Origin: Candidatus Nitrosopumilus sp.
GTDB taxonomy: Archaea; Thermoproteota; Nitrososphaeria; Nitrososphaerales; Nitrosopumilaceae
Length of the DNA: 64,000 nt
NCBI GenBank assembly: GCA_029255365.1
Contig: JAPFQF010000005.1
Location: 1 to 64,000, forward strand
Reading direction: 5' to 3'
Part shown: piece by piece, positions 18,402-48,432 of the stretch
Numbering within the stretch: position 1 is the stretch's first letter
Layout of the letters: each line of letters starts with the position of its first letter
Translations under genes and position numbers: made by a program
The notes under the pieces: generated by a model
Databases searched by the model: none
Seen by the model: only the letters and a program-made list of their open reading frames with translations
Told to the model about the DNA's origin: nothing

Positions 18402-19499
18402 TCAAACTCTTAGTATGTTTCTGGAGATTAAGTTTTCCATGGCTTGCAAATACTCTGATTCGGAAATTTTTTCTTCCAGTAGCCACTTTGTAGTCGTTTT
18501 CCACCACTTTGGTATCGCTGTACTATATGATTTGCTGTTGTGTTCTGCATCAAAAAAATTCGTGGCTGTAATTTTTGTGTCGTCTCCCACTGTCAGCACT
18601 TCGGTTTCATGAAATTCATGCGAAAAAACAAGCCCTGTCTCCTTGTCGATGATTTTTAGATTTTGACCTGAAGAATCTCTTGCAAACAATGACTGTCTAA
18701 TTTCACCGTCTACTGTGTATGTTGTTTCGCTCATAATCTTCAAATCTTTTGAAATCACATCTCCCAACGCGATCGGCATCGGCACCGCATACTCGTAAAA
18801 TTCACAACACTTTTCCGAAATGATCAGTCCCTGAAAATTCAGATTCATCTGCCCTGTGCTTGTTCCTTCCTTTGAGGTCTCGTAGATTTTTAGAATTATT
18901 TCCTCGCTGTCTATGGAATACACTTCGTGTTTCACGGTGATGACGTTTTTGAATTTGTCTGTGTGTGAATATTTTATGAAATCCCCTACTTCAAAACATA
19001 TTCTGCCTTCATCGCATTTTCTGTCTTTGGTTTCATTAAAAATAACTCCCGCCTCAATCATTGCCCTAATCCCATACGCGAAATCTGTATCGCTATTTAC
19101 GTTATCTATCCATAGCTGGGCATCTTTCTTGATCCAACTTGGCATGATGTTGGAAATCTTTAGATGTCTTTCTTTGATGTATCTTGAGTCCCCGAGATAT
19201 TTTTCAATTTCAGACAACAACACTAGATCTCTTGCCTGATGCGTGCTGTTCCATGCTACGTGGTTGTACAAAATTACACATGCCCTGATGTTTGGATGGT
19301 ATGGGTGCTGTAGAGACAGGTTTTCAACCCCTAGCAATTTGTATTCGTCATAATAGAATTCGCAGAACCTCAAAATATCTTTCGAAGTAATTATTTCAAA
19401 ATCAGGGTCGTGTGCGTAGGTGTTTTGAAGGCCGGAACTTGATATTAATCCAATTAACATGATCCCAAAAATAATATTTTTCAATGATTCTGTGTTCAA
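18402..19499 (-). CDS. Secreted protein with two Trp-rich modules
   Basis: 365 residues. Signal peptide NIIFGIMLIGLISSSGLQNTYA, then an unrecognised alpha/beta region. Two copies of the 38-residue Trp module discussed in the findings: MPSWIKKDAQLWIDNVNSDT in the middle and IPKWWKTTTKWLLEEKISES at the extreme C-terminus. Probably exported and cell-surface associated. The upstream part (FEVGDFIKYSHTDKFKNVIT) looks beta-rich. Confidence 0.75.
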   Translation of the reverse strand: MNTESLKNIIFGIMLIGLISSSGLQNTYAHDPDFEIITSKDILRFCEFYYDEYKLLGVENLSLQHPYHPNIRACVILYNHVAWNSTHQARDLVLLSEIEKYLGDSRYIKERHLKISNIMPSWIKKDAQLWIDNVNSDTDFAYGIRAMIEAGVIFNETKDRKCDEGRICFEVGDFIKYSHTDKFKNVITVKHEVYSIDSEEIILKIYETSKEGTSTGQMNLNFQGLIISEKCCEFYEYAVPMPIALGDVISKDLKIMSETTYTVDGEIRQSLFARDSSGQNLKIIDKETGLVFSHEFHETEVLTVGDDTKITATNFFDAEHNSKSYSTAIPKWWKTTTKWLLEEKISESEYLQAMENLISRNILRV

Positions 19500-19637
19500 A
19501 GTTTTGCTTATTAATTCAATGTAGAAATTCCTTAAACTATGATGCCAATCCGGAATTGTGTGTGTGGCTTTGATTCTGTGTTTGCTGCTTTTTGAAATTG
19601 GCTAAGGTTTTTATTTTTGGTGCTTCACCTTAAAGTC

Positions 19638-20009
19638 GTGACTGGTAACGCTTTGTATGCTGAAAAATGTGCTAAACTGTTAAGAGAATCTGAAATTCGT
19701 TTTGCAGGAATATTGGACAAAGACGGCAAACTAATTTCTGGCGGTTTTAAGGAAGGCCTTGTCCCTTATGAGGGAGATGAGACCAAATTGCAGTCGTTTT
19801 TTGACTTTGTTTCAAAAGCATCTATACGAAAAGAATTTGATGAAAGTCTGGGGCCGATAAACTACATTGCTGCCAGAAGAGACAAGGCGGTTTTAGTAAG
19901 TTTCCCGTTTCCAATAACACAAATTCTGCTGTTGATCTCTGCAGAGCCAACTGTAAATATTGAAAATCTGGCAAAAAAAGTTGTAGAAATTTTCACCGAT
20001 GTCAACTAA
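19638..20009 (+). CDS. Small conserved archaeal protein (DUF6659-like), paralogue 1
   Basis: About 123 residues from the GTG at 19638. The track's TTG at 19617 adds seven residues not seen in the paralogue. It aligns along its length with the protein at 25331-25723: KLISGGFKEGL against HLTAGGMKDGM, and DKAVLVSFPFPITQILLLIS against DKVIVMSFPLNGDNVLLLSC. The fold pattern resembles a profilin/roadblock-like sensor domain, but that is inference. I think this matches the thaumarchaeal family annotated DUF6659; unverified. Confidence 0.65.
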   Translation: MTGNALYAEKCAKLLRESEIRFAGILDKDGKLISGGFKEGLVPYEGDETKLQSFFDFVSKASIRKEFDESLGPINYIAARRDKAVLVSFPFPITQILLLISAEPTVNIENLAKKVVEIFTDVN

Positions 20010-20068
20010 GTCTGATTGAACAATCTGGCGAATTCTTTAATTACGCGTATGAAAAATTGCCATTGATC

Positions 20069-21055
20069 ATGAATTCTAATTTGCTGATTGTTTTACTGCT
20101 GATAATATTTCCGCTCTTTTTCGCAGATTCTTTTGCTAGTGTCAATGACTTTACCACTGACAAAATATCGTACGGCACTGATGATTTTATAATTATTTCT
20201 GGCAGTGTCGATTACAACCCTGATCTTTTCTCAATAATTATCCAAATTATCACCCCCGGCGGATCTGGTTTGGCCCACGTTGACAGCGTTATTCCAAACA
20301 GTGACGGAACTTTTAAAAAAACAATTCATGCCGGTGGCCCTACCTGGTCCGAAAATGGTAAATACACGATTAAGATTTCTTACGGCGGAAATTTGGAAAA
20401 ATTCATAGAGTATGAAAAATCATCCGAGTATGTTCCTGGCATTTCGACACCGCGCCTTTCAACACCTGGCACCTCTACCAACGATTATTTTGTTGAGAAT
20501 CCTAAAATGAGGATTCTGGGATTTCCCTCTCTTGATAACTCGCCACAATACTATATCGACAGGTACAACAACGAACCTGGTTACAGATCGTGGTTTGATT
20601 CCCAGTTCCCGCTTTACACTGTTTATGAAGTCGTTGGATACAAATCCACACACGTTGAAAATTTCCCATCACTTGACACTCCCCCACAGTACTATATCGA
20701 CAGATACAACAACGAACCTGGTTACAGATCGTGGTTTGATTTTCAATTTCCAGGACAAACAATTTACGACATACTGGGATTTTCCACGTATGTTCCTGAT
20801 TGGATAAAGACGTATGCTGAAAATTGGGCTGCTGGTGATATTTCTGACAATGAGTTCATGGACGGCTTGGATTTCATGCTGAAAAACAAGATAATGGTAA
20901 TTCCAAATATCAATTCTGCCGCTTCCTCCGTTGATGAAATCCCTCACTGGTTTAGAAATACGGCTCACTGGTGGTCCATCGACCTTATTTCCCAACAAGA
21001 ATTCATCAATTCCATAAAGTATCTTATCCAAGAAGACATAATTTTAGTTGAATAG
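20069..21055 (+). CDS. Secreted protein with internal duplication and two Trp-rich modules
   Basis: About 328 residues from ATG 20069 (MNSNLLIVLLLIIFPLFFAD is a signal peptide; the track's TTG at 20057 is less likely). An Ig-like beta domain (SGSVDYNPDLFSIIIQIITP) is followed by two near-identical 47-residue units (PQYYIDRYNNEPGYRSWFD) and two C-terminal Trp modules (VPDWIKTYAENWAAGDISDN and IPHWFRNTAHWWSIDLISQQ). Likely an exposed structural or adhesive protein. Confidence 0.78.
   Translation: MNSNLLIVLLLIIFPLFFADSFASVNDFTTDKISYGTDDFIIISGSVDYNPDLFSIIIQIITPGGSGLAHVDSVIPNSDGTFKKTIHAGGPTWSENGKYTIKISYGGNLEKFIEYEKSSEYVPGISTPRLSTPGTSTNDYFVENPKMRILGFPSLDNSPQYYIDRYNNEPGYRSWFDSQFPLYTVYEVVGYKSTHVENFPSLDTPPQYYIDRYNNEPGYRSWFDFQFPGQTIYDILGFSTYVPDWIKTYAENWAAGDISDNEFMDGLDFMLKNKIMVIPNINSAASSVDEIPHWFRNTAHWWSIDLISQQEFINSIKYLIQEDIILVE
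20543..20741 (+). repeat. 58-bp direct repeat inside the secreted-protein gene
   Basis: Units at 20543-20600 and 20684-20741 differ at 2 of 58 bases and are spaced 141 bp (47 codons), in frame. Such high identity points to a recent duplication or ongoing gene conversion. Confidence 0.9.
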
Positions 21056-27214: not shown

Positions 27215-28654
27215 TCAGCTCAGCAAACAGTATGCATATGATGGAGCAAATGACGGATACATGATGTTGTTTTCTTCACTGACATGTTTCAATCCTATGG
27301 AGTGGCCTAACTCATGTGTCATGATAGTTTCGACACTGTTTACATCGTACAACTGAAAGCTTCCATCACAGTTGTAATCCCCAAGCGTAACTTCCACAAC
27401 TCCTTTTCCTAGGTGCGCATGTCCCAACACCCCGTCTCCTATATCGCGAACCACCCAAGTTACCCAAACATTTGCTTCGTGTTTCTGACTTGTCACTTCG
27501 AATTCCATTCTTGCATTTTGATTGTCTGTGCTTAATTCTTGTTTTTCCCAAAAAGCAAAAGAATTCTTCAATGTACTAACATGATCTAACGGAAGCCCGT
27601 TTGGTTGGTCGTTGATGAATACCTTGTAGTGGATAATGTATGTCCCGTTATTGATTTGATATGTTGGATCTGGAAACTTATCTGATGCTTTTTTTACCTC
27701 CTCCTCAAAATTCCATTTGATGTAGTCCCTGAGGAATTTCTTTATGACGTCCTGACTTGGATTGGGATATTCTATGTATCTTTTCTCTTTGATGATGTTG
27801 CTGGAGATGTCTCTGAGGTATTTTTCAAACAAATAAAATTCGTGATCAAACTCCTCTTGAGATTTCTGCGGCTCCTTTTCAATCGCAATAACAATCAATC
27901 CGTTTTCAATCAGGTGTTGGATTCCAGATACAAACGCGTCGTCGCTTATCTGACTGTCTGCCCACCATCCAGCATTGTTTTTTACCCATTCTGGAATGTT
28001 TTCATCTGACTGTTTCAACGCCTCGACTGGGGGGATTTGAATAATTTTCTTTTCTATCATGTACCTCAAGGCCGAATTGAACTCGGAGTCTTCTATCTTT
28101 CCCTCCGACCACCATTTGGCAATCGGTCTTACCCATTCTGGAATGGATGAAATTCGTACTTGTGCTTTTTCATCTGGTTTTTCAGTAGAGGTGTACGGGT
28201 ATTTCAAAATCACGCTGTTGATGAAGTTTTTGTAATTGTTTATTATGATGCTATTTGGTTTTTCTTTTGACGCTTTTTCAAAATATGTTATTGATTCTTG
28301 GTATTCTCCCAAATTCCCAAAACCTACGCCCATCCCTGTCAATGCGATTACGTCGTTTGGTTTGTACTGCAGTACCTTGAAGAACTGTTTTAGTGAATTG
28401 CCGTGTTCATCCAGATTGCTCTGAGCAATTCCCTTCATTTTTAGAGTTGAGATGTTGTTTGGAAACATCTCCAATATTTCATCATATATTGTGATTGCTA
28501 CCTTGTATTCCCCCTTGACAAAGTGCTCTTTAGCCTGATTGAACATTTGCTCGGGGTTTTCGGTTGTCTGTGCAGATGCCGTTTCTAATGATATGGCTGA
28601 ACTGAATAAAATTACCAGTAAAAGATAAAAAACTTTCATCATGTCTTTTTTCAT
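27215..28654 (-). CDS. Secreted matrixin-type zinc peptidase with TPR and Trp-rich modules
   Basis: About 479 residues from MKKDMMKVFYLL (28654), which is a signal peptide (ILFSSAISLETASA); the track start at 28738 adds a basic leader. Order: TPRs (residues about 40-150), two Trp modules (IPEWVRPIAKWWSEGKIEDS and IPEWVKNNAGWWADSQISDD), then a metzincin domain with HELGHSIGLKH (HExxHxxGxxH) and the Met-turn NIMYPS. Probably degrades extracellular or surface proteins. Confidence 0.87.
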   Translation of the reverse strand: MKKDMMKVFYLLLVILFSSAISLETASAQTTENPEQMFNQAKEHFVKGEYKVAITIYDEILEMFPNNISTLKMKGIAQSNLDEHGNSLKQFFKVLQYKPNDVIALTGMGVGFGNLGEYQESITYFEKASKEKPNSIIINNYKNFINSVILKYPYTSTEKPDEKAQVRISSIPEWVRPIAKWWSEGKIEDSEFNSALRYMIEKKIIQIPPVEALKQSDENIPEWVKNNAGWWADSQISDDAFVSGIQHLIENGLIVIAIEKEPQKSQEEFDHEFYLFEKYLRDISSNIIKEKRYIEYPNPSQDVIKKFLRDYIKWNFEEEVKKASDKFPDPTYQINNGTYIIHYKVFINDQPNGLPLDHVSTLKNSFAFWEKQELSTDNQNARMEFEVTSQKHEANVWVTWVVRDIGDGVLGHAHLGKGVVEVTLGDYNCDGSFQLYDVNSVETIMTHELGHSIGLKHVSEENNIMYPSFAPSYAYCLLS

Positions 28655-28779
28655 GTTTTTATTTTGTTTATAGTTTATTTCTAATTTACACTTTTTACAG
28701 GCTCGTTTTGCATGCTGTGGTTGAGTAATTCGCATCATTTAGAAAATCTTTAATTCACTAATGGCCATGTGGCCATGTA

Positions 28780-47456: not shown

Positions 47457-48432
47457 ATGAAAATCATTTTTGTGAAAAAGAATTTCTATTTTCTAACATC
47501 AATTTTATTTTCAGTTTTATTATTTTCAGGATTTTCCTATTCTGATGCTCAAATATTTTCGCAAAACGGCAAGGTTGTAGTAATTGGATTTGGTATTGGA
47601 CATGCTGACACATTGGAGAAAACATCCGTGGTTGGTGCTCAAACTCTTTTAAAAAATTCTGTAATTTGGGCTAGTGGAACTGAATCTCCTAAAATTTTAC
47701 TCTTAGTTGACTATTCAATTGATACATCCAGTATGGATTCAAAAGATTCTGCTTTCATTGAATATACTTTATCTGAATTCTCCATTGTTAAAAAAATTGA
47801 TTCTACTGATGGAATTAGTATTATCAATTGAACTTTATGAAGACCGAGGAATTGCTAATGTCTATCACTCTGAGGTATTATTTGACTTTGGAGGGTTGGT
47901 AATGGATGAAAACAATCTGACCTCAATTATTTATGAAAAAGATTCCTTGACAACAATCAATGATCCAAATGAATTGCTCTCGCATGCATCACTACAAATT
48001 TTAGAAAAAGATACAGATAATGGAGTATTACAACTCAAAGTCAAATTCCAAAAACCAATGGATACATCAAGTGTTCAAATTGTGACTTGGGATTTGGAAA
48101 GAAATACCTCTATCAAAACATTTGAAAATATTCTAAGAATTGAAACACCACAAGAATCTAACAAAGAAATTCCAAACTGGGTAAAGTCTTCTGCTAGTTG
48201 GTGGTCAAATGGTCAAATTTCAGATGATGACTTTGTACAAGGATTGGAATTCCTAGTCAAAGAAGATATTATTTCAGTTAAAGATGTAACCTCTGCTGAA
48301 TCATCCTCAGAAATTCCATCGTGGATTAAAAATAATGCAAAGTGGTGGTCTGAAGATTCACTTTCTGATGATGAATTTGTTTCAGGAATTGAATATTTAA
48401 TTAAAACAGGAATACTTAGTGTACAAAAATAA
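47457..48432 (+). pseudogene. Secreted protein with two Trp-rich modules, frameshifted
   Basis: The first ORF (47457-47831) has a signal peptide (FLTSILFSVLLFSGFSYSDA) but no C-terminal modules. The second frame continues as LVLSIELYEDRGIANVYHSE and carries two Trp modules (IPNWVKSSASWWSNGQISDD, IPSWIKNNAKWWSEDSLSDD) but has no signal peptide of its own. Removing one base near 47812-47820 (ggaattagtatt) gives a continuous ...DGIVLSIELYEDRG. A 7-A run at 47790-47796 is an alternative slip site. Real pseudogene, recoding or sequence error. Confidence 0.7.

Follow-up and report, generated by a model that had tools for sequence, protein, structure and literature searches.

The present analysis bears on how marine ammonia-oxidizing archaea, which rank with the most abundant cells of the sea, hold copper proteins, proteases and transporter-binding proteins between the membrane and the S-layer. 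Surface attachment is the task of SLH domains. In Nitrosopumilus strains, PEFG-CTERM proteins are likely membrane-anchored surface proteins (PMC6593220). In the lattice of the Nitrosopumilus maritimus S-layer protein NmSLP, the outermost position is taken by the glycosylated N-terminal domains, and the final Ig domains are in the pseudoperiplasm; how the Nitrosopumilus S-layer is anchored to the membrane is left unresolved in the published lattice, and a SlaB-type anchor has been suggested to link the two in these archaea (PMC11153153). The N. maritimus parvulin NmPin is exported and sits on the outer membrane face with neither a transmembrane (TM) helix nor a lipid anchor (PMC4922055). Here we describe a short Trp-rich module of exported Nitrosopumilaceae proteins which, we infer from its place in related proteins, keeps them at the cell surface.

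The module in four exported proteins of the window

The window (the whole 64-kb stretch of DNA that was analysed) carries eight copies of the module, two in each of four proteins, as a preliminary description of this DNA had counted. A six-frame regular expression recovered 7 of the 8 copies, and an HMM built from the eight recovered all of them (E 2e-22 to 1e-18) when the whole 1.2 Mb assembly was searched. The first protein (18405..19499, minus strand), identified from its open reading frame and translation, starts with TTG at 19499 and stops at 18402-18404. It is an exported protein with one internal copy (copy 1, NIMPSWIKKDAQLWIDN..., at 19035..19154, minus; HMM E 1.0e-18) and one at its C-terminus (copy 2, at 18405..18524, minus; E 2.2e-19). 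Both copies stand as described, and the strand is to be corrected to minus. Its orthologue in a closed congeneric genome (G007, 1,563,356 bases) has an identical layout (L178:2955-4076).

The second protein (20069..21052, plus strand) consists of a signal peptide, an Ig-like domain (about 20141-20416, plus), two YIDRY repeats and a C-terminal doublet of the module, formed by copy 3 (20783..20902, plus; HMM E 1.9e-20) and copy 4 at the C-terminus (20933..21049, plus; E 2.5e-20). The YIDRY unit, FPSLDxxPQYYIDRYNNEPGYxSWFD, is a second repeat in this protein, occurring at 20522-20584 and 20663-20725, and it is also found twice in the G007 orthologue (L178:4609-5694). The third protein (27218..28738, minus strand) is likewise exported and combines TPR repeats (TPR_1, E 1.2e-8), a mid-protein doublet and a C-terminal M10-type metalloprotease (Pfam PF00413, E 9.6e-9), whose HELGHSIGLKH motif lies at 27284-27316 (minus). 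Its doublet comprises copy 5 (28034..28150, minus; HMM E 2.3e-20) and copy 6 (27887..28003, minus; E 6.4e-21).

The fourth exported protein (47457..48432, plus strand) holds copy 7 (48160..48279, plus; HMM E 1.1e-21) and, at the C-terminus, copy 8 (48304..48423, plus; E 2.0e-22). The two copies had been described correctly, but the single open frame had not: the coding sequence falls into two overlapping frames, 47457-47831 with the signal peptide and 47707-48432 with the doublet. The apparent frameshift lies close to a run of seven A. The gene contains either an assembly error (frameshift) or a real break that makes it a pseudogene, and the two look alike here because a search of 39 congeneric genomes yielded no homologue of the 47457-47831 frame.

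Sequence, predicted fold and distribution of the module

The module has the consensus xxEIPSWIKNNAGWWADGxIDDxSFVQGIQFLIKEGIMKI, with a core, IPxWIKNNAGWWADGxIDDxSFVQGIQFLIKEGI, that was derived from 268 distinct copies. Conserved polar and aromatic positions include K9-N10-N11 and the pair W7/W14. The copies are acidic, with a mean net charge of about -2.4, and nearly free of cysteine. The latter disfavours disulfide links, and the net charge of the average copy makes it unlikely that lipid is contacted by electrostatics alone, in the manner of NmPin. AlphaFold2 modelling of 49 doublets predicts a pair of helical hairpins, with helices at 9-19/25-37 and 57-67/73-85 (mean pLDDT 82.8, pTM 0.69), in agreement with the compact hairpin per copy that had been proposed from the letters.

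Neither Pfam nor NCBIfam has a model that reaches its cut-off over the module stretch. A sequence profile search of the PDB gave an epitope scaffold as its best match (E 0.084), and Foldseek reached E 3.8 at best in the PDB and 1.2 in viral models, the 93-residue hairpin pair being a weak fold query. The module thus matches no Pfam, NCBIfam or PDB family, and full-text literature searches found no account of it. It is best explained as an autonomous soluble helical-hairpin domain.

Counted with a profile, as the preliminary description had proposed, the 1.2 Mb genome of the window contains 26 solid copies in 15 proteins; a 27th match, in an SMC-like protein (L027, E 0.004), was set aside as chance. 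With these 26 copies as the profile we found, in the closed genome, 42 copies in 25 proteins, all 25 of which begin with a signal peptide, so that the carriers are not mainly cytosolic proteins. By hand count, the module stands at the C-terminus in 16 of them, right behind the signal peptide in 7 and internally in 2. Counted over every locus examined, 142 of 153 adjacent pairs have starts separated by 49 or 50 residues, and as a rule the final copy stops at most 2 residues before the C-terminus of its protein; the loci from the contig collection were chosen with a doublet query and are therefore biased to doublets, and the G007 set is unbiased.

The module was present in all 200 Nitrosopumilaceae genomes searched, covering 22 of 22 genera (E <= 1e-5), typically in ~15 to 45 copies per genome; some genera have merely 3 to 8 copies, and the highest counts are at least 37. 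None was detected in 24 genomes from 16 other families of the same order. Likewise, a 300-genome draw from the phylum gave 44 strong matches, all in Nitrosopumilaceae, and four genomes outside the family gave single weak matches (E 3e-4 to 4e-3), which is about chance level over about 256 genomes. The best 80 of 471 matches in the contig collection bear Nitrosopumilaceae-type names or broader thaumarchaeal or archaeal labels, with one Proteobacteria bin. The family is called Nitrosopumilaceae here on the strength of these names together with its S-layer and its genes. As far as searched, the module thus appears specific to Nitrosopumilaceae. The contig titled Proteobacteria (L103, JADFOC010000001.1) encodes a typical doublet protein and is probably mis-binned archaeal DNA. 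A viral origin was considered and rejected: the sole IMG/VR locus (L064, contig 3300006340_000718) has phage-like DNA in one half and an archaeal PhnD-ABC operon in the other. The contig is probably chimeric, and its PhnD has two modules behind the signal peptide.

Exchange of the module with membrane anchors

Three protein families contain members in which a known type of anchor occupies the place of the module. The first is the phosphonate-binding protein PhnD, where the exchange concerns the N-terminus. In the closed genome PhnD is ordered as signal peptide, cleavage site (TAQA-ES), module and binding protein. The window genome's own PhnD, 86% identical to this orthologue, is module-free and begins with an uncleaved-looking membrane helix. 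The gene adjoins phnC and phnE, encoding the ABC ATPase and permease, and PhnD must therefore remain at the membrane. Among 70 PhnD orthologues of Nitrosopumilaceae, 51 have the module and 19 lack it. Inspection by eye found a signal-peptidase site in all 50 judgeable module-bearing sequences (the remaining one is truncated where its contig ends) and, at the N-terminus of all 19 module-free ones, a TM helix that looks uncleaved. An automatic rule detected the site in 47/51 module-bearing versus 2/19 module-free proteins (Fisher p 1e-10, kinship ignored). Of the four module-bearing exceptions, three have clear sites that the rule missed and one is the truncated sequence; in the two module-free exceptions the rule picked up a chance match within the helix or beyond it. 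The best PhnD tree demands at least 8 changes of state, with only 2 independent pairs on well-supported branches. Since the module-free N-termini belong to several unlike membrane-helix types, the sequences suggest that module and membrane helix were exchanged repeatedly.

At the C-terminus, we compared homologues of a carrier encoded on contig C41 (L176 in the closed genome) from Nitrosopumilaceae and sister families. The doublet is present in seven Nitrosopumilaceae members. In another Nitrosopumilaceae protein (L330) and in most sister-family relatives it is replaced by a PEF-type tail with a membrane helix; the tails give weak NCBIfam matches to PEFG-CTERM or PEF-CTERM, slightly under the cut-offs. 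Some Nitrososphaeraceae-like and family f8 relatives have neither the doublet nor a PEF-type anchor. The third family comprises the Ig-domain relatives of the 20069 protein. All six doublet-bearing relatives are without a C-terminal TM helix, and 39 of 40 complete module-free ones possess it (p 7e-7, kinship ignored); a PEF motif is found in 36 of those 39.

Across carriers more generally, 0 of 29 have a C-terminal TM helix, compared with 7 of 33 other secreted proteins of the window and the G007 stretches (Fisher p 0.012; signal peptides and TM helices were called by simple rules rather than by a trained predictor). The lack of this helix in the 29 carriers, and of any NCBIfam match to the module, sets the module apart from PEFG-CTERM (TIGR04296). 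The carriers of the closed genome include a polysaccharide deacetylase, fibronectin type III repeats, a plastocyanin-like copper protein, an M10-like protease and PhnD. Plastocyanin was tried as a further exchange family and set aside: the module is present in the close orthologues, and the paralogues that lack it are without an anchor, which neither supports nor refutes an exchange. These paralogues (L348-L362, about 250 residues) have another N-terminal domain where the module would be. As they possess neither module nor anchor, the absence of an anchor does not in itself prove that a protein needs one.

A further carrier in the closed genome (L175) matches NmSLP (PDB 8c8k) over most of its length (E 5.8e-102) and ends in a doublet. 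In 8 of 12 genomes this short S-layer paralogue, of about 1000 to 1130 residues, bears the doublet, and in the other 4 no TM helix takes its place; from the main S-layer protein, of about 1700 to 1800 residues, the doublet is absent in all 8 cases examined. Because the last Ig-like domains of NmSLP lie in the pseudoperiplasm, the doublet of the paralogue would be expected to face the membrane. The paralogue encoded in the genome of the window, on contig C25 (L019, about 1255-1607 of the locus), lacks an internal stretch, so that its first residues run directly into the final module, the two meeting in a short sequence that they share. The loss is either a deletion in the organism or an assembly collapse.

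Possible roles of the module and comparison with known systems

We consider it likely that the module is a non-covalent cell-surface tether, which would hold exported proteins on the membrane side of the envelope. The argument is one from homology: related proteins carry a membrane anchor in the module's place. Export by a cleavable signal peptide would come first, and a free terminus with a single module or, more usually, a pair of them would then keep the carrier between membrane and S-layer, the module taking over the job of the TM helix or PEFG-CTERM tail of its relatives. Each hairpin may occupy one binding site, and the second copy of a doublet, by adding avidity, probably strengthens the tether. 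The binding partner would lie on the membrane side, and might be a lipid head group, a glycan or a protein of the membrane. The module had been suggested to attach to S-layer, membrane or polymer; the anchor exchanges in three families argue for attachment, and they indicate the membrane-facing side of the envelope more than a free polymer. PhnD, the exchange with PEFG-type tails and the S-layer paralogue all favour the membrane over the S-layer. More tentatively, and with slightly less than even confidence, we propose that a dedicated membrane receptor, protein or lipid, recognises the hairpin, as part of a protein-retention system evolved in Nitrosopumilaceae.

Some properties of the module would also be expected of a docking domain by which different proteins pair into complexes, homotypically or heterotypically and in a dockerin-like manner, with no surface receptor: there are about 25 carriers per genome, the doublets have a fixed spacing, and K9-N10-N11 and W7/W14 are conserved. 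Such pairing leaves the swap with single-protein membrane anchors unexplained unless at least one partner is itself anchored; none of the 29 carriers checked has a C-terminal TM helix of its own. We regard this explanation as improbable.

It is similarly unlikely that the target is the lattice of the S-layer, or glycans on it, and that the module has none at the membrane. In favour of such a target, all carriers are exported, the S-layer is the sole wall of N. maritimus, and Trp-rich pairs like that of the module are common in sugar-binding sites. Three of the 49 doublets do match the bacterial SLH model (PF00395) weakly, but the best of them (E 0.022) is far under the Pfam gathering score, and no carrier protein scanned whole gave an SLH match. 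Furthermore, the S-layer paralogue itself bears a doublet, at its presumed membrane-facing end, and a transporter-binding protein, PhnD, exchanges the module for a membrane helix. Finally, a sorting or maturation signal that is recognised in export and then removed, as thought for PEFG-CTERM tails, would suit the terminal position in 23 of 25 G007 carriers and the exchange with PEFG-CTERM, but is highly improbable for a module that has no hydrophobic stretch and no conserved cleavage motif beside it, is found at both ends of proteins and inside them, and forms a folded, duplicated hairpin of fixed spacing unusual for a cleaved signal.

If such a receptor-based retention system exists, a genome would hold about 15 to 25 of its exported proteins, or more, in the pseudoperiplasm, among them proteases, copper proteins, transporter-binding proteins and an S-layer paralogue, and this retention would need no TM helices, lipoprotein modification or archaeosortase. 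The module would also allow part of the surface proteome to be predicted from sequence alone, flagging many 'hypothetical' proteins as envelope proteins, and the question of its receptor could be approached directly with a 90-residue tag.

The family-wide module itself is new, and its functional kind, a non-covalent surface tether, is already known. Like SLH domains, it is a short repeated helical unit of exported proteins that stands in tandem at a terminus; it differs in length and motif, and forms doublets whereas SLH domains form triplets. We know of no pyruvylated wall polymers, the ligands of bacterial SLH domains, in these archaea. With PEFG-CTERM and PEF-CTERM (TIGR04296, TIGR03024) it shares the C-terminus of exported proteins in the same archaea, and homologues bear either one or the other. 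Whereas PEFG-CTERM combines a PEF motif, one hydrophobic helix and a basic tail, the module is a soluble, acidic and duplicated unit that occurs N-terminally as well. SlaB has a C-terminal transmembrane domain, whereas the short S-layer paralogue ends in a module doublet. A parallel in location is NmPin, likewise exported and lacking a membrane anchor of its own, but what NmPin presents is a lysine-rich patch on a folded enzyme, and the module is a separate acidic domain.
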